NCBI GenBank assembly: GCA_003235715.1
Contig: QJVM01000236.1
Span: 1-53,174, forward strand
From: Nitrospirota bacterium
GTDB taxonomy: Bacteria; Nitrospirota; Thermodesulfovibrionia; SZUA-242
Reading direction: 5' to 3'
Length of the DNA: 53,174 bases
Shown piece after piece: positions 3,465 through 49,975 of this stretch. Position numbers and translations under genes: made by a program. The first letter of the stretch is position 1; every line of letters begins with the position of its first letter. The notes under the pieces are model-generated. The model worked only from the letters and a program-made list of their open reading frames with translations, was not told the origin of the DNA and did not search any database.

Positions 3465-6449
3465 CTACTTTATTAACTGTTCGTAATAGGACTCCACATC
3501 CTTTTCGTAATTTCTGGGGTACTTGCCTTCCCGCATGGCCCTCATGACATCCTCCCGGAAGCCCTTTAGTTCCCGGGCTTCCATCTCCTCGGGGATTTCG
3601 ACGTGACTTCGATCCACATCCTGTCCCTGGGACCCCGGGCCCCCCGGCTTCTGAACCATCCTGAATCCGGACTCACCGGAAGCGCCCCCCTGCATCTTCT
3701 TCTTGGCCTGTTGCAGTTCCCTGGCAATACCGGAGAGTCCCTCAAGCGCACGGTTCTCTGACTGCAGAGCCCCGGGGCGGTCCGCGGCTTTCAGCTGTCC
3801 GGAAGCCTCTCCCATCGCGTCTTGGGCCTGGTCCGCCATTCCCGGCACGTTAGGCGGCAGGAAGGGCAGGTTCTTCAGGGTCTTCCGGAGCTTCGATCCG
3901 AACTCTCCCGTCTTTTCTTCCAACCCCTGCTGTTTTTCGCCAAGACCGGCGAGCTGACGGCGGACTTCCTCGGAAATTTCGGAAGAAGATTTCCCAAACA
4001 GGCCTTCCAGTTCCTCCCTGAAGGCCTCGATCTGCTTCTGACCTGCTGCTTCGCCTTGCTTCAGGTTCTGCTTGACGCTTTCTGAAGCCTCTTCAGACCT
4101 GGCATTGAATTCGGCGTAGACGTCACGGTAGGCACCCTCGAGATAAGGAATCATGTCCTGGCTCCGAGCCGGGTCGGACCGCAGATTCTGGCGTGTTTCT
4201 GAAAGGGCTTCATTGAAACGGCGTCTCTTCTCGAAATATTCCAGAGACCTTTGGGCCTGGTTGGTCTCGGGCTTCATGTGCCAGCCCATCTGGTGTCTCG
4301 GAATGCGTGCCTCGTTCTGTCTTACGTTTTCCGCAACGGCATCCAGACGGGACTCCAACCTCTTCATCATTTGCTGAAAAGCCGCACGGTCCATTTCAGC
4401 GGACGGTCCGCTCTCCCGGGCCGAGAGTTCCCGCGTTTCATTGAGCAGGCCTTCCTGTCCCTTCATCAGCTCCCCCAGGTCCTGTTCAAGCTCTGACATA
4501 TCCTCAAGCATCATCCCCGATGTACCCTCCGATGCGGCGCGAGCCGCATCTTCGAGCGCGGAAAGCCAGGAACTCATTTGAGCAAGAAGCTCCTCCGCCG
4601 CCTTACGGGCCTCCTCTGAATTGCCCGACTTCAGAGCTTTCTGAAGACGTTCCAGGGCCTCCTGAAGGTCCGATTTAGGCATATCCCGGACGGCATCCGC
4701 GTTGACGAACTCTTCAGGCATGGATTCGCGTTCCCGGGCCAGCATCTGGTTCATCCTGGACATGAGTTCCATTATTCTGTTCAAAAGCGATTGCATCCTG
4801 CGTGGATCGGTTCCGCTCTGAAGTTCGTCAAACAGACTTCTCTGCAGGGCGGAGATCTCCTCCCCAAGACCAAGGGCCTTTTCCATATTGAGGTTTCTGA
4901 GGAGGCGGTCCAGGAGGAGAATGTCCCGTTCCAGTTCCGGTATTATCGGCCCTCGGTCATCCGAGCCGTCAATGAAGGGGCGAAGGACGACCTCAAGACT
5001 CGTCTTAATGGAGATCAGAGCTAGGGAGGGAGGCGATTCCAGAACCAGCTCCATCTGCTGGTTCCTCAACAGTTCGCTCATGAGGCGGAGGAGGTCCTCG
5101 GCACCATCACGGAGCCGGGTCATACCCGTTTGCTCACCTTCACGATGCTCGAGATGGTCTCCGAGGTAAAGAACCAGGGACTCGAAGAGGCGCTCCTCGA
5201 GGTTCTCAATGGTTTCCACAATCTTTCTTCTATCAATGAATGACAGGTATACCGAACGGGTGGACCCCGCCTTGGCGCCCGCGACCGAATCGTTGTCCCA
5301 TACGGTTACGCTGAGATGGGCACCCTCACCCAGTCCTTCGTATCGCAGGGGGAGAATCTGGACAGACCCCTCCGTGGTCCTGCCCGGCTCCATCCGCACG
5401 GGAAGTCTGACCTCTTTGTCTCCCCGCAGCACAACCTCGGCCCTTTCAATTCCAAAATCGTCCTCCGCACGGAAAGAAACCTGAACCACAGCGTCCTTGA
5501 GGATCTCGAGGTCTGCCTCGGGGGTCACCAGAGTTGCTTCAGGCGGGTGGTCCGGGAGCATTTCAAACGGCTCGGGCGTAAAGCCCAAGGGGAGGAGGGC
5601 ACCCGAACGGAAAAACTCAAACCGGTATTCGCCGGATTTGCCCAGAATCCAGGCCACGCGGAACTCTCGGTCCGACTGGACGGTCCCTTCGATGGGGTCA
5701 CCGCCCTCCGGAAGGACCACGCCCCGTTCAACTTTGCCAGACAACAGGGATTCCACAGATACCCGTGTACCCGGAAGGGCCCTCAGGGAACCGCTTACAT
5801 CCTCGATTACAGTCTCCGGAAGGCCTGTATAAGCCGGTGGAGAGAGGGTGTATCTCGCGCTGTTAAAGGTGATAGGGGAAGGACGCAGGGCTCGGACAAC
5901 GGCCCGCCAACCGGTCAACGCCCCGTAAGGGTCAGCAATGAGAAAGGCAGCCGCAAAACAGACGCTCCCGGCCAGAAGAATCACCCAAGGCGTCAATTCG
6001 CCCGCGGGAAGCGCACGGGAGGGCTCGAGCTGTCTGGCCGCCTCTGCGGCCATTCTGACCTGAGCCTGGACCAGGGAAAGGCTGGCCCCTCTTTCACTGG
6101 TGGTTTGCGGGCCCCACCGGGAAAGATCCGAACCCGAAACAACGAGGTCCTTCAGGTCCGGGCGTCCCGACGAGAGAAGGCCTGCCGCCGCGCTCATGGA
6201 GAGCCGGGGCCTTCGGAACCTTCTGAGTGCTGCATATACCCCCAGAAGAATCACGGGCGAAACCGCCAGAACTATCACGGCGGACCATACCCGAAAGGAT
6301 TCCGAGACCCGGGCGGGAAGCGTAAAAAATGGGATCAGGGCGAGAGCAAGCGCCGCGGTAAAGGCTGACGCGAAGGCCATTCCCCGGCGCCAAGCGGCCA
6401 GACGGCGGACGGTCCTGACTCTGGAAACAAGAATTGAGGCGTAATCCAT
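3465..6449 (-). CDS. DUF4175-type large membrane protein with long coiled coils
   Basis: The protein has 994 residues. The N-terminus has two transmembrane helices (about 20-45 and 55-77) and a third at about 150-172. A beta-rich extracytoplasmic part follows (about 190-400). From about residue 405 to 960 it is highly charged, Glu/Gln/Arg-rich and probably coiled-coil. This layout matches the DUF4175/TIGR02302-like family, which is often encoded beside MoxR and DUF58. No enzymatic motif is visible. It is the first gene of the minus-strand unit ending in moxR-DUF58. The upstream 320-base gap is shared with divergent ahbD. A role in envelope maintenance with MoxR is inferred from gene order only. 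Confidence 0.72.
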   Translation of the reverse strand: MDYASILVSRVRTVRRLAAWRRGMAFASAFTAALALALIPFFTLPARVSESFRVWSAVIVLAVSPVILLGVYAALRRFRRPRLSMSAAAGLLSSGRPDLKDLVVSGSDLSRWGPQTTSERGASLSLVQAQVRMAAEAARQLEPSRALPAGELTPWVILLAGSVCFAAAFLIADPYGALTGWRAVVRALRPSPITFNSARYTLSPPAYTGLPETVIEDVSGSLRALPGTRVSVESLLSGKVERGVVLPEGGDPIEGTVQSDREFRVAWILGKSGEYRFEFFRSGALLPLGFTPEPFEMLPDHPPEATLVTPEADLEILKDAVVQVSFRAEDDFGIERAEVVLRGDKEVRLPVRMEPGRTTEGSVQILPLRYEGLGEGAHLSVTVWDNDSVAGAKAGSTRSVYLSFIDRRKIVETIENLEERLFESLVLYLGDHLEHREGEQTGMTRLRDGAEDLLRLMSELLRNQQMELVLESPPSLALISIKTSLEVVLRPFIDGSDDRGPIIPELERDILLLDRLLRNLNMEKALGLGEEISALQRSLFDELQSGTDPRRMQSLLNRIMELMSRMNQMLARERESMPEEFVNADAVRDMPKSDLQEALERLQKALKSGNSEEARKAAEELLAQMSSWLSALEDAARAASEGTSGMMLEDMSELEQDLGELMKGQEGLLNETRELSARESGPSAEMDRAAFQQMMKRLESRLDAVAENVRQNEARIPRHQMGWHMKPETNQAQRSLEYFEKRRRFNEALSETRQNLRSDPARSQDMIPYLEGAYRDVYAEFNARSEEASESVKQNLKQGEAAGQKQIEAFREELEGLFGKSSSEISEEVRRQLAGLGEKQQGLEEKTGEFGSKLRKTLKNLPFLPPNVPGMADQAQDAMGEASGQLKAADRPGALQSENRALEGLSGIARELQQAKKKMQGGASGESGFRMVQKPGGPGSQGQDVDRSHVEIPEEMEARELKGFREDVMRAMREGKYPRNYEKDVESYYEQLIK

Positions 6450-17516: not shown

Positions 17517-19715
17517 CTAAATCATCGGGTCCATGGAGAGCGCCGGATGCCCAACCGAACTCAAAAACTCGAGCAGTTTCTCGGAATCCTGCGCAATGGT
17601 TTCGTCCGCGATCTTGTCGAGAAGATCCGGCACACCTTCCTGTGCCGCTCTTTCTTCAAGTGCTTCCTTCAGGCTCTCCTTGAGCGCCTTGGTCATCCAA
17701 ACCACCCGTTTAAAGCCTCCGTCGCCAAACAGGAATTTCCTGCTCGTAATAAAGTTTCTGCCGATGCCCATGAATCCGGGAGTCTGCAGGCCTCCGCCGA
17801 CGGTGCCGGCAAGGGTGGAGAACTTCATGCCGATGGGTGTCATTTCCGCGTGCCCCCGGTTAACCAGCATGACTCCGTTGGCTTCCGGAAGGATGGCACA
17901 GATCACCTCAAAACATCCGCATGAAGTCATGGGATTGTCCATGATGGTGTAGGCGTTCATGGTGGCCACGGCCCCGCCGGTGGACTGGCTGAGGTAGTCA
18001 TCGACACCGCTCCAGCGTCCCTTCTGTGCATCAAGTACATCCCCCTTAACGATGGGCTGGTTGCCGCCCGTGGGGTCGATTTCGTACGCGGCCTTACCGT
18101 CCAGCCAGTTGTAAGCGCCGCAGAGACCGAGCCGCTCCGGCGTGATCACGCAGGCGTGGCTTGGCGCGAAAGACTGACAAAGCAGGCAGGAGTAAAAGGT
18201 ATCCACGGATTCATCGGTAAGGCTTCCCACGCGGGCATCCCTCTCCTTGTACGAGGCGCGAGCCTCCTCCTGTACGCGCGTCACATCCTCTTCATCCACG
18301 AACAGGGTGACCTGAACCTTGTCGACGATAGCCTTGAAACGGCTTCGGGTCATGGCGGTCTGAATAACTCCGAGGTGTTCCAGGGTGAAGCCGTCTTTCT
18401 TGGCATTGATGCTGATCCGGACCCAGTTGATGTCTCGCTGGCCCATATGCCATATGCCCTGGGCTTCATTGATGTTATGGTGGATCTTCCGTTCAATTAC
18501 GGATTCGAAGTCCTTCTGCATCTTGCGGCCGGCCACTTCGATGAGGATGCCCAGAGGCATCTTGCCCCCGGCCTCGAAACGCTTTTCCCAGTCCTTTCCC
18601 ACCACGATGACCTTGCCGTCCTCGATATCTTCGAGTTCCCTCATCCGGACCCATTCGAAAGCGGGCGTGCGCTGCCCGCCAAATTCGATAAACATGTCTT
18701 CCTTGCGGATGCGTTCGCCTTCAAAGGCCGGTCCGTAGGCCACCGGGATGGGCGGCTTCTCCACCGTGATCTTCAGGCCGCGGACCTCGATGCCCTTCTG
18801 GACAATCTTGTCGTGGTCGAATTCCTTGTCCACTTCTTCATACGTGCAGACGCCTGTCGGATGGATAACCGGAACGTCGGTATCGCAAACGGCAGGGAAG
18901 CCCATGTTGATGGCTCCGGCGCCGGTGGCCCATTTCATGTCGTCCATCGGACCCAGGGCCAGCGCGAAGGCAAACACCCGGTCCTTTTCATATTTCAAAA
19001 TGTTTCTGAAATCGCCCGGCTTCATCCCACCGAAGATCATGGCTGCGCGAACAGCCCAGTCCAGCGCGTACAGGGTGTGTTCGGTCAGGGGCCCGAGGGG
19101 AACAATACGCGTATCCCAACCCAGCTGGATCCCCCGCCGGAGAAGCTGTTTGGTTACGGATTCTCCGTTGGATTCTCCGGAAAGGAAGGTCAGGATGTTT
19201 TTCTCCTGAAGCTCCTTGACGATCTTCTCCGCAATCTCATCGGTCGGGGCCGCCCCAATGATGGCCGCGAAGCCGGGCATGGTCCCGTCCACGAGCTGGA
19301 TTCCAAGGTTGCGCTGGATGGTGTCGGTAATGTAACCGTTGTAGGTCAAATTGAGTTCAGGGTCGTGAACCGGTTCCTGCCCGGCGATATAACGAAGCGC
19401 CAGCCACACTTCCTGGGCAAACAGCGTAGCCATGCCGCCGTCCAGGGCCTCCCCCAGGTATGGAACCCAAAGCTGGTCGGCCGGTTCCTCGGAAAGGAGT
19501 TCCCGGGCGAAGCGAAGGCCTTCCCGCATCTGGCCCAGGGTCCGGATGTCGTACCCCGTCATCGCCTGGATCATCGGAAGACCGAAAGCCGTATCCGGGA
19601 ACTCGAATTTGAGATCCTCGCCCTTCTCGGCGATCGTATTCTCCAGAAGGTCCTCGGCGCGCTTGACCATTTCGTTGGACGCCCGGATGACGGCGGATGC
19701 AATGATTTTGGACAT
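17517..19715 (-). CDS. acsB: Acetyl-CoA synthase (CODH/ACS alpha subunit)
   Basis: The 732-residue length matches the bacterial enzyme. The A-cluster Cys are visible: CLLCQ near residue 509, followed by SHACVITPERLGLCGAYNW, and the TSCGCFE motif near 595-598, whose Cys-Gly-Cys binds the distal nickel. The enzyme combines a methyl group from the corrinoid protein, CO and CoA into acetyl-CoA in the Wood-Ljungdahl pathway; some organisms run it in reverse. ATG 19715 has AGGAGGA 8 bases upstream. It stands alone here: no acsA, acsC, acsD or acsE gene is in the window, so the rest of the complex must be elsewhere. It has a candidate promoter at 19917-19946 and its own terminator. Confidence 0.97.
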   Translation of the reverse strand: MSKIIASAVIRASNEMVKRAEDLLENTIAEKGEDLKFEFPDTAFGLPMIQAMTGYDIRTLGQMREGLRFARELLSEEPADQLWVPYLGEALDGGMATLFAQEVWLALRYIAGQEPVHDPELNLTYNGYITDTIQRNLGIQLVDGTMPGFAAIIGAAPTDEIAEKIVKELQEKNILTFLSGESNGESVTKQLLRRGIQLGWDTRIVPLGPLTEHTLYALDWAVRAAMIFGGMKPGDFRNILKYEKDRVFAFALALGPMDDMKWATGAGAINMGFPAVCDTDVPVIHPTGVCTYEEVDKEFDHDKIVQKGIEVRGLKITVEKPPIPVAYGPAFEGERIRKEDMFIEFGGQRTPAFEWVRMRELEDIEDGKVIVVGKDWEKRFEAGGKMPLGILIEVAGRKMQKDFESVIERKIHHNINEAQGIWHMGQRDINWVRISINAKKDGFTLEHLGVIQTAMTRSRFKAIVDKVQVTLFVDEEDVTRVQEEARASYKERDARVGSLTDESVDTFYSCLLCQSFAPSHACVITPERLGLCGAYNWLDGKAAYEIDPTGGNQPIVKGDVLDAQKGRWSGVDDYLSQSTGGAVATMNAYTIMDNPMTSCGCFEVICAILPEANGVMLVNRGHAEMTPIGMKFSTLAGTVGGGLQTPGFMGIGRNFITSRKFLFGDGGFKRVVWMTKALKESLKEALEERAAQEGVPDLLDKIADETIAQDSEKLLEFLSSVGHPALSMDPMI

Positions 19716-41910: not shown

Positions 41911-42071
41911 TCTTCCTTTTTGTTACCGGTTTCTTCGTCCTCGTCCAGCATGCGGTACTTGGGCCCTTCCATATCCTCGAACTGTCCGCTTCGGGTGGCC
42001 CACAGGAAGAGAAACCAGGCCGCGACGCCTGCACACAGGGAAAGAAATACCAGCAATACGATGGACCACAT
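41907..42071 (-). CDS. ccoS: cbb3 oxidase assembly protein CcoS
   Basis: The 54-residue protein has one transmembrane helix (about 2-22) followed by FLWATRSGQFEDMEGPKYRMLDEDE, which is the CcoS signature. ATG 42071 overlaps the ccoI stop (TGATG), the expected coupling; a longer frame to 42158 would add 29 residues and overlap ccoI by 88 bases. CcoS is needed for cofactor insertion into the cbb3 oxidase. It is the last gene of the cco cluster. Confidence 0.9.
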   Translation of the reverse strand: MWSIVLLVFLSLCAGVAAWFLFLWATRSGQFEDMEGPKYRMLDEDEETGNKKED

Positions 42072-44491
42072 CAGTGTCGATGGAGGCGGAGGGAATTCCC
42101 CACCACCGTAAGAGAACTCAGGGCCATGGCTCCCGCCGCCATGATGGGATGTAGCCATCCCGTAATCGCCAGGGGCACGGCCAGCATATTGTAGGCAAAA
42201 GCCCAGAAAAGATTCTGCCGAATCACCCTGTAGGTCCGACGGGTCAGTTCAAGGACGCGCGGGACGAGCATGAGGTCTTCGCGCAGCATCACGGCATCCG
42301 CAGACTCCAGGGCAATGTCATTGGCCCCGCCCACAGCCATTCCCACGCTGGCCTCGGTCAGGGCCGGTGCATCGTTGATGCCGTCCCCGACCATGAGAAC
42401 CTTCTTCCCGGAACCTTCAAGAGCCCGAACGACCTCAGCCTTGCCGACGGGTGAAACGGCTGCGCGGACCTCAGAGATGGCCAGCGTCTGGGCGATAATC
42501 CTGGCCACGGTTTCTGCATCTCCCGTCACCATCATCGTATCCAGCCCCATGGATTTAAGCCGGGCCACCATGGGCAGCGCTTCGGGTCGAACCTCATCGG
42601 ACAGATGAAAGAATCCGGCCAGGCGACCGTTCATGGCAAGAAAAACCCTGGAATGGGCGGGGTTTTCGGGCAGGACAGCATCCGGACCTTCCAGGGGCTC
42701 CATATCCACACCCTGAGACCGAAGGTACGCTTCGGTTCCCACCATTACGGGCAGGCCCGCCACCCTTCCGGAAACACCCTGGCCGGGAAGAGCCACGAAG
42801 TCCTCAACAGGGAGCAGATCCAAGCCTTCTGCCGCCTGGTACAGCGCCTCACCATACGGATGTTCGGAGTTCTGTTCAAGGGACCCAGCCACCCGGAGGG
42901 CCTCTTCGCAAGTCATCCCGAGACCTGTCGCGCTTACGAGTTTTGGCCTCCCGGTGGTCAGAGTGCCCGTCTTATCGAAGACCACCATGGCCGAGCGGGC
43001 CATTTCCTCGACCGTATCGCCCCCTCGCAGGATAATCCCGGAATCGGCCGCCCGGCCGGTTCCCACCAGAATGGCCAGGGGCGTGGCGAGCCCGAGGGCG
43101 CAGGGACACGCGATAACCATGACGGATATGGCGGCCATGAGGGCCTCGGGCGCCGGACGCCCCGAGATCCACCAGCCTGTGAAGGTGAACAGAGCGATCA
43201 GGACGATCAAGGGGACAAAATATCCTGTTATCCGGTCGGCCAGCTTCTGAATGGGAGCCCGGCGGCTCTGGGCCTCCTGGACGGCCGAGACGATACGGGA
43301 AAGCGCCGTATTCCGGCCCACCGCCGTCACCCTGAAACGGAAGGCCCCGAAGCGATTCACGGTTCCGGCGAAGACGTCGTTCCCCACGGTTTTGACGACC
43401 GGACGCGACTCCCCCGTAAGCATGGACTCGTCCACCTCGGAGGTTCCCCACGTGACACAGCCATCTACGGGAATGCGGTTGCCGGGTCGGAGGTCGAGCA
43501 CATCCCCGACGCGGACCGATTCAACCGGGACGGTCTCGCTCCGTTCTCGAGAGGGATCGTCGGTCCCGGCAACGAGGCGGGTGGCCGTACCGGGCACGAG
43601 CGAGAGAAGTCGGGAAATGGCCTCGGTAGACCGCTTCTTTGCCCCAAATTCGATATACCGTCCCAGCAGGACCAGAGTAATGATCATGGCGCAGGTGTCG
43701 AAGTAGACCTCTCGGCCGCGGACCAGCTGCCAGATGCTGAGAAGGTAGGCTGAACCACTCCCCGCGGTGATAAGCACGTCCATATTGAAGCTGCCCTGCT
43801 TCAATCCCCTCCAGGAACCGGAAAGGAAGGGCCAACCGGAGTAAAAGAAAACGGGCGTGGCCAGCACGAGGGCGGTCAGATGAAACAGCGTCCGGAATTG
43901 CGAAGGCATGCCATAAAAGTATCCCGCGTACAAGGCGGCTGAATAGAGCATGAGCTGCATGGAAAAGAAGAGGGCCGTTCCGAGGCGGGTCAGTAATCGC
44001 CGACGTTCGTCTTCCAGGAACTGGTTTTCGCCTGTGAGGTTCAACGGGCGCGGCTGGTATCCCACGTTCGCGATGCGACGAAGGATGTCCGAGAGAGATA
44101 GAGTCGACGGCACCCAGCGTATTCGGGCCCGGTGCGTGGCATAGTTCACCCGGGCCTCACGGATCCCATGGGTCTTCTCGAGGACCTTCTCGGTCAGCCA
44201 GACGCAGGAGGCGCAGCGAATGCCCCCAACCTGCACCTCCACCTCCATGAGGTCCTCCCCGATGGTCCTTACCGTTTCAGCGAAGAGGGCAGGGTCGGTA
44301 TCGAGCCGGACCACGGGACCCGGAGCCCACTTGGAGCGTTTCCGATAGAAAGCCTCGAGGTGTTCCGTGTGAATCATTTCGTACACGCCAAGGCAGGCGT
44401 GACAGCAAAAGACCTTGTCCGAACCTCCAAAGGTCGCGGTGACCGCGCGGTGTGAAGGGAAGGCAATGAGACAATGCTCACAGGTTGGCAT
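42071..44491 (-). CDS. ccoI: Copper-translocating P-type ATPase CcoI/FixI
   Basis: The 806-residue protein has an N-terminal Cys-rich domain (CEHC...FCCHAC), then a heavy-metal-associated domain with CASC near residue 93. The membrane CPC motif is near 461 (IACPCALGLATP), and the phosphorylated Asp is in DKTGTLTTGRP near 506. GDGINDAP completes the P-type fold. FixI/CcoI sends copper to the cbb3 oxidase. The gene overlaps both neighbours: 14 bases with the SafE-like gene and 3 bases with ccoS. Confidence 0.96.
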   Translation of the reverse strand: MPTCEHCLIAFPSHRAVTATFGGSDKVFCCHACLGVYEMIHTEHLEAFYRKRSKWAPGPVVRLDTDPALFAETVRTIGEDLMEVEVQVGGIRCASCVWLTEKVLEKTHGIREARVNYATHRARIRWVPSTLSLSDILRRIANVGYQPRPLNLTGENQFLEDERRRLLTRLGTALFFSMQLMLYSAALYAGYFYGMPSQFRTLFHLTALVLATPVFFYSGWPFLSGSWRGLKQGSFNMDVLITAGSGSAYLLSIWQLVRGREVYFDTCAMIITLVLLGRYIEFGAKKRSTEAISRLLSLVPGTATRLVAGTDDPSRERSETVPVESVRVGDVLDLRPGNRIPVDGCVTWGTSEVDESMLTGESRPVVKTVGNDVFAGTVNRFGAFRFRVTAVGRNTALSRIVSAVQEAQSRRAPIQKLADRITGYFVPLIVLIALFTFTGWWISGRPAPEALMAAISVMVIACPCALGLATPLAILVGTGRAADSGIILRGGDTVEEMARSAMVVFDKTGTLTTGRPKLVSATGLGMTCEEALRVAGSLEQNSEHPYGEALYQAAEGLDLLPVEDFVALPGQGVSGRVAGLPVMVGTEAYLRSQGVDMEPLEGPDAVLPENPAHSRVFLAMNGRLAGFFHLSDEVRPEALPMVARLKSMGLDTMMVTGDAETVARIIAQTLAISEVRAAVSPVGKAEVVRALEGSGKKVLMVGDGINDAPALTEASVGMAVGGANDIALESADAVMLREDLMLVPRVLELTRRTYRVIRQNLFWAFAYNMLAVPLAITGWLHPIMAAGAMALSSLTVVGNSLRLHRH

Positions 44492-45158
44492 GAAAGAGAA
44501 TTCCCCGGGCGATCAGATAGAGGCCGGACAGGACCACCAGAACCCCGCCCATTCGGTAAAGCCGGTTTCTCAGGCTAGTTCCGACCAACAGGGCCAAAGC
44601 GCCGGCCGAGGTCATGGCCGGGACCGTCCCCAGGCCAAACAGGAACATGACCAGTCCGCCCCTGAGCGCATCGGCCGTGCCCGCGGCCGCAATCATGAAG
44701 GTATACGAAAGGCCGCAGGGAAGCAGTCCCAGCCATAGTCCAAGAGGAAGAAAGGCAAGAGCCGTTCGGGGATGTCCCCATCGGCCTGCCAGGCGGGTTA
44801 TCCACCGGCCCTGAATTTCCAGACGCCCGCTCAGTCTTAAGAGACCGGCAATATCCAGACCCATCAACACCATGACCGCCCCGGAAACATACAAAGCCAT
44901 GTTCTGGATATGGGCAAGACGCCCGGTCACATTGACAAAGGACCCGGCCGCGCCCATGGCCGCTCCAAGAGCCGAATAGGTCAGGACCCGGCCCACGTTA
45001 TAGAATGCGACCGAAGCCATACCCGCGGCCGTTCCTTCCCGTGAACTTTTCAGGGAGACCGCTGAGACGATGGGTCCGCACATCCCGATACAATGTCCGA
45101 AACCTCCAAGCAACCCTCCGGAAACTGCGGCCAGAAAAAGGGGCTCGTTCAGGGTCAT
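44478..45158 (-). CDS. SafE/TauE-like (COG2836) membrane protein of the cco cluster
   Basis: The 226-residue protein has about six transmembrane helices and the family motifs GGFGHCIGMCGPIV near the N-terminus and GLLPCGLSYTFM in the middle. The paired Cys (GHCIGMCGP) and PCG motif are typical of the COG2836 members found in cbb3 assembly loci, which are linked to copper or cytochrome maturation. ATG 45158 lies in ATGA with the stop of the preceding gene; the longer frame to 45248 would overlap that gene heavily. Its 3' end overlaps ccoI by 14 bases. Confidence 0.85.
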   Translation of the reverse strand: MTLNEPLFLAAVSGGLLGGFGHCIGMCGPIVSAVSLKSSREGTAAGMASVAFYNVGRVLTYSALGAAMGAAGSFVNVTGRLAHIQNMALYVSGAVMVLMGLDIAGLLRLSGRLEIQGRWITRLAGRWGHPRTALAFLPLGLWLGLLPCGLSYTFMIAAAGTADALRGGLVMFLFGLGTVPAMTSAGALALLVGTSLRNRLYRMGGVLVVLSGLYLIARGILFHANL

Positions 45159-45610
45159 TTCACCGAAAACAGGAACCAGACGTTTCCGGTTACGTCCCCG
45201 ACCTGTACCTGGAGGTCGCCTCGCCAAAGCGTCTTTCCGCTCGGACACTTGGGAATAACCCCCTTTCCCTGGTACAGGCCATTTCCAAGCCCGGAAAGTA
45301 TGGATCGGTTCTCGCCCATAAACATTCCGGGCATGGAAAGATCCAGCGCAACCTGTGCACCATCCACGGGACCGTTGCGGTCAGACAGGGAGACGGTGAA
45401 TTCAAGGTCGGTCATCGCCCGGACGGGCTTGGGAGAGATGTCCAGAGTAACCGCGACGCCTGGAGCGAGCACAGCGGCACAGGCCTGCTCATGAAGGTTG
45501 CAGTCTTCGCCCATTCGAGGCCCTCGGGTGTCTGGTTCTGTGTTTCCGGAACATCCGGACCAGGCCAGAAGGAGAACCAACAGAGGGAGTCGGAATCGTC
45601 GTATAAACAC
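45155..45610 (-). CDS. YtkA-like lipoprotein of the cco cluster
   Basis: The 151-residue protein begins with a basic, hydrophobic signal ending LLLAWSGC, a probable lipidation Cys at position 20 although the lipobox is imperfect. The rest is a YtkA/FixH-like beta domain with DLEFTVSLSDRNG and DLSMPGMFMGENR. It may bind copper in the periplasm, by analogy with Met-rich YtkA-like domains. It lies between fixH and the safE-like gene and overlaps the latter by 4 bases. Confidence 0.72.
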   Translation of the reverse strand: MFIRRFRLPLLVLLLAWSGCSGNTEPDTRGPRMGEDCNLHEQACAAVLAPGVAVTLDISPKPVRAMTDLEFTVSLSDRNGPVDGAQVALDLSMPGMFMGENRSILSGLGNGLYQGKGVIPKCPSGKTLWRGDLQVQVGDVTGNVWFLFSVK

Positions 45611-45623
45611 GTGATAAAGCTCC

Positions 45624-46103
45624 TCAACCCCCGGCTTCGGGAGGGGCGGCGGTCACCATAACATGCCGGACAAAGAAAATCCGGCCAGGGTCCCTGCTCC
45701 ATCGGAAGCGAATCTCCCACCGACCCGTGGACGTGAAAGCGACCTCGCAGGAATACCCGTTTCCTTCTCTCCGGCAGGACGACCCCGGCTGGTCAAAACT
45801 GCTGTTGTCCGTGCGTCCCGCTTCCACGATGAAATCCTCAAGAGGTACGGGAGCCCCCCCCGCATCCCTGATCGAGAAGCGGATGCGGTTCAGGCCCACG
45901 GCATAGCGCGCCTTCTCAACAACTGGATTCCACCCGAGGGCCTCCTTCTGATGCTGTATTTCATCCCACTGGAGCCCGGTTTCGTAAGGGTTTTCCGTAA
46001 CGGTTCCGTCAAAGGTCAGTGTGCCGACCACCAACGCGCCCACAACTGCCAGGAGGGCAAGCATAATGGAGGCGGCCAGCGCCAGTTTCAGCCTGAAAGT
46101 CAT
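45624..46103 (-). CDS. ccoH: FixH/CcoH-like assembly protein
   Basis: The 159-residue protein has one N-terminal transmembrane helix (about 7-28) and the FixH core GTLTFDGTVTENPYETGLQWDE near 27-48. FixH/CcoH helps in cbb3 oxidase assembly and is thought to join CcoI in copper delivery. Its ATG overlaps the ccoG stop by 4 bases. Late in the chain is a Ser/Cys-rich segment, SSCRREGNGYSCEV, with two Cys that could form a disulfide. Confidence 0.88.
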   Translation of the reverse strand: MTFRLKLALAASIMLALLAVVGALVVGTLTFDGTVTENPYETGLQWDEIQHQKEALGWNPVVEKARYAVGLNRIRFSIRDAGGAPVPLEDFIVEAGRTDNSSFDQPGSSCRREGNGYSCEVAFTSTGRWEIRFRWSRDPGRIFFVRHVMVTAAPPEAGG

Positions 46104-47287
46104 TCTCGCAGGCCCGTTCGAGGTATTCTGAGCGGGATGGATACCGCACGGTCTCCCGGCGCAGCCGTGGCGGTGAGGACGACCCGGTTCCTATCCGGCT
46201 GAGAACCTCCCCCAAGCGGGCGGATCTGAAGGGTGACTTCCCGGGTCTCGGACGCGGCCAGGGATACGGACGGGAGACTTACGAGGGTACCCCCCTGGGC
46301 GGAGAGCGTTATCTCGAGCGGCCTCTCGCCCCGATTTCGGAGGATGACCCGGTACGGAAAGACGGGAGATACTTCCTGGCGGGACAGGGGCGAACCCACC
46401 TCCCTGCGTGCGAACATTTCAAACGGTGTCCGGACCTGTGCAAGGTGGACCAGAAGGACGAGAAGGACCAGACTTACCGCGCCCAGCAGGAGAACGTTCC
46501 CCCGAAGGAGGCGACTCGTGGTGCCGGGAAGACCAAAGAAGTAATCGATGAGGGTCTCTTTGCCGATTCTTGCGGTCTGCCGTGAACAGGCGTCAATGCA
46601 CTTCGTGCAGTTAATGCAGGCAATGTCCTGTCCAGCGCGGATATCGATCCCTACCGGACAGGCGCGGAGGCACGCTTCACAGTTCATGCATTCGTCCTTA
46701 CGGCGGTCATCAAAGGCGATGACCAGCGTCTGATCGTCGTAAAGAACACTCTGCATCTTGGCATACGGACAGACGGTCTTGCAGAAACGTTGTCTGAGGA
46801 ATGTGAGATCTAGGAAGAGAATGACGGTATGGACGGTCCAGAAACCCCAGAGCACCGGGCCAAGGCGGTTCTGGAGGAGACGATCCAGGAATTCGTAGGG
46901 AGATACAAAGTACCAGATCAGGCTGGCTCCGACCACCAGACTGACCACCAAAACCCATCCATGGGACGCCAGGCGTTTCAAGGGAGTCCGGGAAGACACG
47001 ACCTGGCCCGTCAGGTCGGAAAGCACCGTCTGTGGGCACACCCAGCCGCACCATATCCGGCCCATCAGAACCGTGAAAAGGCCTATGAGAAAAAGGACCA
47101 GAAGAAGGGCGAGCAGGACAAGAAAGAACTCCTGCATCCAGACCGTGGTTCCGAACAGATGAAGACGGAGGCTCGGGATATCGAAACGGAACGCGCTTTC
47201 ACCCCGAATGCGAATAAAGGGCAGACCCAGCAGAACGAGGGCCTGGCCCCATGCCGCCGCGCGCCTGTACGGCGCGTATCGCGTCAA
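46100..47287 (-). CDS. ccoG: cbb3 oxidase accessory ferredoxin CcoG
   Basis: The 395-residue protein has about five transmembrane helices in the first 190 residues and WCGWVCPQTVL. Two [4Fe-4S] motifs lie near 200-240: CMNCEACLRACPVG and CINCTKCIDACSR. The C-terminal part is an immunoglobulin-like domain. CcoG/FixG reduces copper for the oxidase in homologues. TTG 47287 overlaps the ccoQ stop (ATTGA), so a non-ATG start is supported by the coupling. Confidence 0.93.
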   Translation of the reverse strand: MTRYAPYRRAAAWGQALVLLGLPFIRIRGESAFRFDIPSLRLHLFGTTVWMQEFFLVLLALLLVLFLIGLFTVLMGRIWCGWVCPQTVLSDLTGQVVSSRTPLKRLASHGWVLVVSLVVGASLIWYFVSPYEFLDRLLQNRLGPVLWGFWTVHTVILFLDLTFLRQRFCKTVCPYAKMQSVLYDDQTLVIAFDDRRKDECMNCEACLRACPVGIDIRAGQDIACINCTKCIDACSRQTARIGKETLIDYFFGLPGTTSRLLRGNVLLLGAVSLVLLVLLVHLAQVRTPFEMFARREVGSPLSRQEVSPVFPYRVILRNRGERPLEITLSAQGGTLVSLPSVSLAASETREVTLQIRPLGGGSQPDRNRVVLTATAAPGDRAVSIPLRIPRTGLRE

Positions 47288-47427
47288 TCATCCTCCTCCA
47301 TCATCCTGTACTTGGGCTCTTCGACGCTCCTGCGACGCCGGCGGGCATAGTAGTGGACGATGATAATGGCCAGCGCGATGACGAGGGTCAGGCCGAAGAG
47401 AAAGTAGATGATGCTCTGACCGGCCAC
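47284..47427 (-). CDS. ccoQ: CcoQ-like small subunit
   Basis: A 47-residue frame begins at GTG 47427. It has one transmembrane helix (about 6-25, IYFLFGLTLVIALAIIIVHYY) followed by a basic patch and an EEPKYRMMEEDD tail. This is the CcoQ/FixQ layout. It lies between the ccoP anchor and ccoG, its usual place, and its stop overlaps the ccoG start. No strong ribosome site is seen. The acidic tail resembles the tail of CcoS. Confidence 0.78.
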   Translation of the reverse strand: MAGQSIIYFLFGLTLVIALAIIIVHYYARRRRRSVEEPKYRMMEEDD

Positions 47428-47447: not shown

Positions 47448-47633
47448 CTACTTCCCGAGGGATTCCTCGTAGGCCGAGGCCTGGGTCCATCCGCTGATGG
47501 CCGGGGTGTACTGCACAAAATAATAGATTCCCCAGACGATGAGACCGATATACAGCATGAGCCATCCCAACGGAAGCTTCTTCGCCGTAGCCTTGGCCTC
47601 GAATTCCTGGATATTGTCAAAATCTTCTTCCAT
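47448..47633 (-). CDS. Stand-alone CcoP N-terminal anchor (FixP_N)
   Basis: The 61-residue protein has one transmembrane helix (about 20-40) in the FixP_N pattern KKLPLGWLMLYIGLIVWG...YTPAISGWTQASAYEE. In normal CcoP this anchor leads into two cytochrome c domains. Here the protein ends after the anchor, while a cytochrome c domain is fused to CcoO, the gene immediately upstream (47645-48562). The gene follows ccoO by 11 bases. It may anchor or regulate the complex without heme. Confidence 0.82.
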   Translation of the reverse strand: MEEDFDNIQEFEAKATAKKLPLGWLMLYIGLIVWGIYYFVQYTPAISGWTQASAYEESLGK

Positions 47634-47644
47634 AGGCGCCTCCG

Positions 47645-48562
47645 CTATTTCTGAATCATCCGGATATAGGCAATAAGCTCCCAGATTTGCTTCTGGGTGA
47701 GGGCATTGCCAAAAGGCGGCATGCCTCCCTTGGCCGGCCGGCCGGCATATTCGAGGCCGGGCTGTGTTCCATTCGTGATGATGGCAAAGATGACCTTGTC
47801 ATCGATGTCGCCCTCGACGCCGAGCCACACCTTGTCCCGCAAGGACGGGCCAATCACCCCTTCGCCGGTCTTTCCGTGGCACGCGGAGCACTGGTGTTCG
47901 AAGGTTTCCTCTCCCGCATGCTCAAGCGCTTCGTGATCACCGAGTTCTTCCATCGTAACTTCTCCGGCTTCGGCGCTCTCCACGACAGGGGGAACCGCAT
48001 GGCCGAGGTAGAGCATATAGGCGACCAGAGCATCCATCTCTGTCTTGCCTTCCAGTTCAGCAATCTCGGCCTCGGAGTAGGCCAGGCCCTGAGCTTTCAT
48101 CCGCCCCTCGACCGAAGTCTGGTCCAGCGGGTTGCCGGTCAGGAAGGCATAGGAGGGCATATTCGATTGGGGTTCGATGGACTGCGGATCCTCGAAATGC
48201 ATGTAATGCCACATGTCCGGGTACTTCAGGCCAACGCGGGCGAGGTCCGGCCCGGTCCGCTTGGAGCCCCAGAGATGGGGACGGTCAAAGGCAAATTCCC
48301 CCGCCTTGGAGTATTCGCCGTAGCGCATGACCTCGGTGCGAAGTGGCCGCACCGTCTGGGTGTGGCAGTTGTTGCAGCCCTCGCGCTGGTAGACATCCTT
48401 GCCTGCCATTTCCAGGGGCGAATAAACGCGAAGCGCCTCGAGGCGAGGGTGCATCTGGGGGGTGAGCATCGGAATCACCATGGTCACCAGGGTTCCGACC
48501 GCAATGACCAGCACAGACATCAGAATGAAGGCAACGGGTTTACTGTATATCCGACCCGACAT
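47645..48562 (-). CDS. ccoO: CcoO subunit fused to a cytochrome c domain
   Basis: The 305-residue protein has an N-terminal transmembrane helix (about 8-30). The CcoO heme site GCNNCH lies near residue 62, followed by the CcoO block HLWGSKRTGPDLARVGLKY and SNMPSYAFL. After a linker, a second heme site CSACH near residue 224 starts a class I cytochrome c domain with GGMPPFGN as the Met ligand region. Thus two c hemes are carried on one chain, where the usual enzyme has one on CcoO and two on CcoP. It lies 12 bases after ccoN. Confidence 0.95.
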   Translation of the reverse strand: MSGRIYSKPVAFILMSVLVIAVGTLVTMVIPMLTPQMHPRLEALRVYSPLEMAGKDVYQREGCNNCHTQTVRPLRTEVMRYGEYSKAGEFAFDRPHLWGSKRTGPDLARVGLKYPDMWHYMHFEDPQSIEPQSNMPSYAFLTGNPLDQTSVEGRMKAQGLAYSEAEIAELEGKTEMDALVAYMLYLGHAVPPVVESAEAGEVTMEELGDHEALEHAGEETFEHQCSACHGKTGEGVIGPSLRDKVWLGVEGDIDDKVIFAIITNGTQPGLEYAGRPAKGGMPPFGNALTQKQIWELIAYIRMIQK

Positions 48563-48574
48563 GGCCTGACCTCC

Positions 48575-49975
48575 CTAAACCCCGGCCCCGGCCATGCGTT
48601 GTTTGCCCTGGTGCATGGTCATGAGCACGTTGTAGATGAAGAAGAGCATCCCCACGGTAAAGATGAGGCCGGAGACCGTCCGCATCTGCCAATAGGGGTA
48701 GTTGGGAACCAGCGTTTCCATAAACGTATATTTCAGCGTGCCGTCCGGGTTCACGGCCTTCCACATGGCGCCCTGTTGAATGCCGGTGATCCACATGGTG
48801 ATGGAGAACATAAGTTGCCCGATGAGGACCAGCCAGAAATGCGTGTTGGCCACCTTGATGCTGTAAATCTCGGTTTTGTAGATCTTTGGGACCACGTAAT
48901 AAATCGATGCGCAGACGGTCATGGTGACCCAGCCCATGGTCCCCATGTGGACATGACCCGGCACCCAGTCGGTGTAATGGATGAGTTGGCTCACGGTGCG
49001 CAGACCCTGGCTCGGTCCCTGTATGGTCTGCAGGCCGTAGAAGGTGATCCCCCAGAGAAAGAACTTGGTGAGGTAGTTGGTTCGCATGGCGGACCAGTCG
49101 GAACCCACCGTGTAATACCCGTTCACCACGGACCCCCAGGAGGGAGCGATCAGGAATATGGTGAAGATGATCGCCAGGGTCTGAATCCAGTCCGGGACGG
49201 GTGTGTACACCAGGTGATGGGCCCCCGTCCAGAGATAGGCAAAGACCACGGACCAGAAGGAAATGATCGAAAGCCGGTGACTGTAGATCGGAATACCGGT
49301 CGATTTCGGGAGAAAGTAATAGAACATGGCCAGGATAGGTGTGGTCAGCAGAAAACCCACAACGTTGTGGCCGTACCACCAGGCTACGTTGGCGCTGTTC
49401 ACCCCGGCAAAAACCTGATAGGACTTGAAAAGATCGGCCGGTACCGCAAGGTTGTTCACGATATAGAGGATCGCCACCGCGACGATGCTCGCAATTACGT
49501 ACCACAGGGAAATGTACATCTGGTCTTCCTTGCGCTTGATGATGGTTCCGAACACGACAATGGCAAAGATCACCCAGAGAATCACCACACCGACATCCAA
49601 GGGCCACTCCAGTTCCGCATATTCCACGGACTGGTTCATCCCGGCCAGGAGACTGAGAGCCACGAGCACCATGGCGACGTTAAAGAGATACAGATGGAAG
49701 CGGGCGAGTTTGGGGAGAAAGAGCGGCACGCGCGTCAGGCGCATGACGATGTAATACGTGATCCCGAATATGGCCCCGATCCCCAGCCCCACGGCCAGCA
49801 CGTTCGTGTGGAAGACGCGCAACCGGCCGAAGGTGAAATAAGGCGCCACGTTCCACGACGGGAGCCACATCTGGACCGAGATCCAGAGACCGGCGACGAT
49901 ACCGATCACTCCCCAGAAGATTGCGGACAGGATAAAACCGTTTACGGTCTGATTATCGTAACGATAATCATCCAT
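48575..49975 (-). CDS. ccoN: cbb3 cytochrome oxidase catalytic subunit CcoN
   Basis: The 466-residue protein has about twelve helices and all expected metal ligands: heme b His in VFHTN (residue 56), CuB His in WYGHNVVG near 202 and HH in GAHHLVY near 250, and the paired heme His in DWVPGHVHMG near 339-345. The Tyr of FYGLQTIQG is in the place of the cross-linked Tyr of cbb3 oxidases. It reduces oxygen with high affinity. It is the first gene of the cco operon; AGGAGG lies just before ATG 49975, and a clear promoter lies 90 bases upstream. Confidence 0.97.
   Translation of the reverse strand: MDDYRYDNQTVNGFILSAIFWGVIGIVAGLWISVQMWLPSWNVAPYFTFGRLRVFHTNVLAVGLGIGAIFGITYYIVMRLTRVPLFLPKLARFHLYLFNVAMVLVALSLLAGMNQSVEYAELEWPLDVGVVILWVIFAIVVFGTIIKRKEDQMYISLWYVIASIVAVAILYIVNNLAVPADLFKSYQVFAGVNSANVAWWYGHNVVGFLLTTPILAMFYYFLPKSTGIPIYSHRLSIISFWSVVFAYLWTGAHHLVYTPVPDWIQTLAIIFTIFLIAPSWGSVVNGYYTVGSDWSAMRTNYLTKFFLWGITFYGLQTIQGPSQGLRTVSQLIHYTDWVPGHVHMGTMGWVTMTVCASIYYVVPKIYKTEIYSIKVANTHFWLVLIGQLMFSITMWITGIQQGAMWKAVNPDGTLKYTFMETLVPNYPYWQMRTVSGLIFTVGMLFFIYNVLMTMHQGKQRMAGAGV

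Follow-up and report, generated by a model that had tools for sequence, protein, structure and literature searches.

The CcoP subunit of cbb3-type cytochrome c oxidases is usually described by its two hemes, and the textbook enzyme carries three c hemes on two subunits. In the stretch of Nitrospirota DNA analyzed here (53,174 nucleotides, hereafter the window), a cbb3 gene cluster departs from this description in two ways, as CcoO carries an extra C-terminal cytochrome c domain and the gene that follows ccoO encodes a CcoP-type membrane anchor with no heme site. This locus thus raises the question of whether such a layout reflects a broken gene or a real variant of the oxidase, and of how its heme domains came to be distributed in this way. 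We put at about 0.78 the probability that the locus, as judged from comparative sequence data, encodes a working cbb3-type oxidase from a clade whose CcoP retains nothing but the membrane anchor and whose CcoO acquired a second heme c domain.

Results

Gene content of the cco cluster

All genes of the cluster are located on the minus strand; in gene order, and with the extra domain of CcoO given on its own line, the features are as follows.

48575..49975, minus strand: ccoN, catalytic subunit of the cbb3 oxidase, 466 aa (COX1, 326 bits)
47645..48562, minus strand: ccoO with C-terminal cytochrome c domain, 305 aa, two CxxCH (FixO and Cytochrome_CBB3)
47663..47920, minus strand: extra cytochrome c domain of CcoO, residues ~215-300 (PF13442; CSACH at 225-229, axial M281)
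47448..47633, minus strand: heme-free CcoP, i.e., the FixP_N anchor alone, 61 aa, one transmembrane helix (PF14715, above cut-off)
47284..47427, minus strand: ccoQ-like small membrane protein, 47 aa, GTG start (FixQ, 23.6 bits, below the cut-off of 29)
46100..47287, minus strand: ccoG, polyferredoxin assembly factor (TIGR02745, 227 bits, below the cut-off of 316.7; Fer4_18)
45624..46103, minus strand: ccoH, FixH family (PF05751, 44.6 bits)
45155..45610, minus strand: YtkA-like secreted protein (PF13115, 17.8 bits, weak)
44478..45248, minus strand: DsbD_2-family membrane protein of the cco cluster (PF13386, 164 bits)
42071..44491, minus strand: ccoI-type copper P-type ATPase (PF12156, HMA and E1-E2 ATPase)

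The ccoN, ccoO, and anchor genes are spaced by 11-12 bases, and each is preceded by a strong Shine-Dalgarno sequence of its own (AAGGAGGG for ccoN, GGGAGG for ccoO, and CGGAGG before the ATG of the anchor gene); the ccoQ-like gene has an equivalent position in relatives. CcoN matched the ccoN model TIGR00780 with 496 bits over 3-463/474 (cut-off 583, not reached), and its best PDB matches were 9g6b_A (456 bits) and 3mk7_A (455 bits); it keeps the HTN, WWYGHN, HH, and GHVH motifs and hence the conserved histidines of C-type heme-copper oxidases. As in other cbb3 oxidases, CcoO contains one transmembrane helix and a mono-heme c domain (FixO, 223 bits; C63xxCH67 and M135), and the ccoGHI(S) assembly genes adjoin the oxidase genes. 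A caa3-type oxidase is encoded on another contig of the assembly. Elsewhere in the window, positions 17517-19715 hold a gene for a CO dehydrogenase/acetyl-CoA synthase subunit, which suggests that this is a Wood-Ljungdahl organism with an O2-reducing oxidase as well.

CcoO and its second heme domain

CcoO consists of a FixO domain (residues 7-169, E 3.5e-66) followed by a Cytochrome_CBB3 domain (residues 215-300, E 7e-18). Both heme sites, C63xxCH67 with M135 and C225xxCH229 with M281, are complete, and their ligands are invariant in 10 homologues; the extra domain and its CSACH site (C225SACH229), on which the original prediction was built, are therefore well founded. Over its full length (residues 3-303 aligned to model positions 3-290/294, 373.6 bits), the protein matched NF011054 (PRK14486), the model for a bifunctional subunit II/cytochrome c, and reproduced the domain order (FixO, then cytochrome c) and length (~294 aa) of that family; by contrast, its score fell below the equivalog cut-off of 447 bits, as did those of all NF011054 matches in the 61 genomes searched, and the family model is silent on a heme-free CcoP. 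The CcoO-cytochrome c fusion as such is already a curated annotation (NCBIfam PRK14486). An AlphaFold model of CcoO was of moderate confidence (pLDDT 71, and below 50 in the heme loop at residues 63-109), and a Foldseek search with this model returned 3mk7_B and other CcoO chains, along with weaker matches to cytochromes c.

A heme-free CcoP anchor

The 61-aa protein matched PF14715 (FixP_N) over residues 1-42 with 28.9 bits, above the cut-off of 24.9, and no CxxCH was found in it, which agrees with the description of this gene as encoding the FixP_N anchor alone; against the canonical diheme CcoP model TIGR00782 it scored 25.3 bits (cut-off 180). Its profile aligns to residues 41-104 of Pseudomonas stutzeri CcoP (3mk7_C). 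Comparison of twelve related-genome pairs identified few replacement changes in the anchor, with dN/dS of 0.035-0.164 in the nine close pairs without synonymous saturation, similar to or somewhat above the values for CcoO; judging by these substitution patterns, the anchor is under purifying selection.

A search for a complete CcoP elsewhere, which had been named as an objection to this layout, identified no second FixP_N protein in the whole 3.24-Mb assembly (95.8% complete, 271 contigs), the sole match being the 61-aa anchor, and the single full FixO match in the genome was the CcoO of the window. Among seven Cytochrome_CBB3 matches in the genome, CcoO included, those examined had no FixP_N anchor. 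A CcoP without a recognizable FixP_N domain, or one encoded in the missing few percent of the draft genome, is possible; in the isolate Anaeromyxobacter oryzae, whose genome is complete, no FixP_N protein other than the heme-free anchor was found.

Distribution among relatives

A FixP_N survey of the phylum Nitrospirota found 55 of 296 genomes positive, with most of the open frames far too short for a heme domain, and cco loci were read in 53 of these 55 genomes as well as in a few others and in five named records. The NF011054 search of 61 genomes identified a full-length fused CcoO in 15 relatives besides the window; the best named matches were Nitrospirae metagenome genomes (L063, 55% identity). 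Expressed as c hemes on CcoO/CcoP, distinct genomes fell into the classes 2/0 (n = 31, including the window and A. oryzae), 2/1 (n = 8), 1/1 (n = 9), 1/2 (n = 1), and 1/0 (n = 1); comparison with related cbb3 loci thus recovers the same split in 31 genomes, window included. The 2/1 class consists of G001, from the window's own family, five others of the phylum, and two Desulfuromonadales, and G002, also of the window's family, has the canonical 1/2 layout. As encoded, the oxidase of the window would carry two c hemes on one chain, as originally predicted; the added statement that these stand in place of three hemes on two subunits holds against the textbook enzyme but not against the many relatives in the phylum whose c hemes already number just two, one each on CcoO and CcoP.

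In six genomes, CcoN, CcoO, and two cytochrome c domains are joined in this order into one chain of 944-997 aa that carries three c hemes, and a heme-free anchor of 50-74 aa follows; such single-chain loci with a FixP_N-like anchor are L185, L190, L197, L202, L203, and L209. Of 38 heme-free anchors, 37 adjoin a CcoO or CcoNO that bears one or more additional heme domains, versus 8 of 18 CcoPs that carry heme (Fisher p 1e-5, a value that ignores relatedness and comes from a sample partly picked by fused CcoO). The contig that holds L220 (G267) carries, ~8 kb from the first cco cluster, another one in which CcoO is fused and the anchor is heme-free. One locus, L194 (G251, reverse strand, ~5054-5880), has a one-heme CcoO beside a heme-free anchor, with CcoO stopping cleanly before the extra domain; its oxidase would contain just one c heme, and the extra CcoO domain may therefore not be strictly required. 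Three loci with divergent CcoO and a 110-aa FixP_N-like neighbor (L205, L206, and L208) were left aside; L208 (G077, a single contig of 2,559,538 bp) encodes at 4474-6351 a 176-aa CcoO, a 110-aa heme-free FixP_N-like protein with two helices, and a separate 143-aa membrane cytochrome c.

Two further small proteins were observed near the anchor or within the cluster. In most relatives, a conserved membrane protein of 29-36 aa (MDIS..ATIGFT...), which was not found in the window, adjoins the anchor (e.g., L045:8895-8993, L052:8880-8978, and L063:7226-7321). It is possibly an unannotated small oxidase subunit; in A. oryzae (L065:7025-7306) the anchor, of 93 aa there, is fused to it, and this fusion speaks for both being part of the complex. 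In addition, a gene for a secreted cytochrome c of 111-125 aa, a possible electron donor to the oxidase, is located between ccoG and ccoI in L045 (10743-11090), L046 and L047 (both reverse), L178, L180, L188, L193, and L211.

Phylogeny of CcoN and of the heme domains

In a CcoN tree, from which the six three-heme single-chain loci had been left out as too divergent, all 2/0 loci and L194 formed one clade (30 rows, support 100/95) that also contained Anaeromyxobacter, with the 2/1 and 1/1 lineages outside; in another CcoN tree, the three-heme single-chain loci formed a group of their own. The heme-domain tree, built on only 92 columns and weak in its deep forks, placed the CcoO domains of the 2/0 loci in a single clade (97/92) that was separate from the domains of CcoP. 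Because L194 falls inside the 2/0 clade and its CcoO ends cleanly before the extra domain, it looks like a case of further loss. Horizontal transfer of the oxidase is likely, since the window's family contains both a 2/1 genome (G001) and a 1/2 genome (G002) and since Anaeromyxobacter is placed inside the clade.

Discussion

The layout described here, conserved as it is across a whole clade of bacteria, is for that reason best read from the comparative data as a real variant and not a broken gene. As the window belongs to a draft assembly in many contigs, a frameshift or mis-join could be invoked; however, about 30 further, independent genomes have this fusion together with a separate anchor gene, and among them is the complete chromosome of an isolate, so that a mis-join of two genes, the sequencing error that had been raised as a concern, is excluded, and we attach practically no weight to an artefact of any kind. 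It is also very improbable that the enzyme works as CcoNO, with the anchor no more than what is left of a decaying CcoP. That reading can point to the disappearance of the CcoP heme domains and to the presence, among the structural matches, of 9g6b, a solved structure titled 'cbb3-2 NOH complex' with no CcoP in its title; yet the anchor has a near-uniform length of 60-70 aa and its own Shine-Dalgarno sequence, shows the marks of strong purifying selection, is kept by practically every member of the clade (in G267, by both copies of the cluster), and is fused to another small membrane protein in Anaeromyxobacter. The proposal that the split is functional and not degenerate accordingly fared well, as far as sequence can speak to it: the split is kept across families of one class and beyond, the anchor has dN/dS of 0.03-0.16 where measurable, and the clade is monophyletic. 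A three-heme chain might instead be completed in trans by a free small cytochrome c, from or near the cluster, that binds the anchor or CcoO. The secreted cytochromes c encoded by several relatives between ccoG and ccoI would suit this role, but none is present in the window's cluster, many relatives are without one, and such a protein could equally be an electron donor and not a subunit; we consider this unlikely.

How the variant oxidase arose is a separate matter. The original prediction held that the CcoP heme domain had moved onto CcoO, i.e., that a single event detached it from CcoP and attached it to CcoO, with the anchor left behind. The domain content fits such a transfer, CcoO adjoins the anchor, and the extra domain of CcoO is of the Cytochrome_CBB3 type. 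On the other hand, an extra CcoO domain and a heme-carrying CcoP occur together in eight genomes (six of the phylum and two Desulfuromonadales), and the CcoO domains of the 2/0 clade are separate from CcoP domains in the tree. These 2/1 intermediates and separate domain clades favor gain followed by loss; a literal transfer is hence unlikely and the term 'moved' is not supported. CcoO probably gained its cytochrome c domain first and CcoP lost its own heme domain later.

In the canonical enzyme, electrons pass along the route cp2 to cp1 to co to b to b3 (PMC7876108). For the oxidase of the window, electrons would be expected to pass from a periplasmic cytochrome c to the heme c of the C-terminal domain of CcoO, then to the CcoO heme c, heme b, and heme b3/CuB, and finally to O2, such that the C-terminal heme of CcoO would replace the entry heme(s) of CcoP. 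The anchor may be kept since the transmembrane helix of CcoP and its short periplasmic stub would serve assembly or stability, together with CcoQ and CcoH, apart from the hemes; we infer this role in assembly from the conservation of the anchor alone.

Compared to canonical CcoNOQP (3mk7, P. stutzeri), the window encodes a similar set of proteins (a CcoN and CcoO core, a CcoP-type anchor, a CcoQ-like protein, and ccoGHI) and differs in having two c hemes on CcoO versus one, and none on CcoP versus two. A fused CcoO is mentioned in an acidobacterial genome paper (PMC12935467). For Nitrospina gracilis, CcoN, CcoO, and both CcoP heme domains are described on one CcoNOP chain with three c hemes (PMC3578206), and similar fused oxidase genes are reported in Nitrospira (PMC7784846; see also PMC8115632). 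This chain resembles the window in that c hemes lie C-terminal to CcoO, and phylum loci of that kind also keep a heme-free FixP_N-like anchor of 50-74 aa; it differs in carrying CcoN and three c hemes on one chain, whereas in the window CcoN is a protein of its own and the c hemes number two. The accessible text of the Nitrospina and Nitrospira papers on the single-chain oxidase makes no mention of a retained heme-free anchor. The tri-heme CcoP of Neisseria represents capture, by an oxidase subunit, of a free cytochrome c domain as electron carrier (PMC2924362); unlike in the window, the domain was gained on CcoP and the CcoP hemes were not lost. No description of a heme-free CcoP or of a FixP_N-only subunit was found in the openly readable literature, in which a conserved heme-free CcoP seems undescribed.

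On balance, we lean towards the view that a whole cbb3 clade has a dedicated heme-free CcoP; CcoP would then be conserved for a structural role, that of its transmembrane anchor, with hemes as replaceable modules on CcoO or on a CcoNO chain. Anchors of 50-74 residues are easily overlooked by annotation. A clade that keeps the anchor without hemes separates the structural and electron-transfer roles of CcoP, such that each becomes testable, and the natural series of CcoO/CcoP layouts (1/2, 1/1, 2/1, 2/0, and 1/0, plus the three-heme chain with heme-free anchor) provides a test of how many entry hemes are needed by a high-affinity oxidase.
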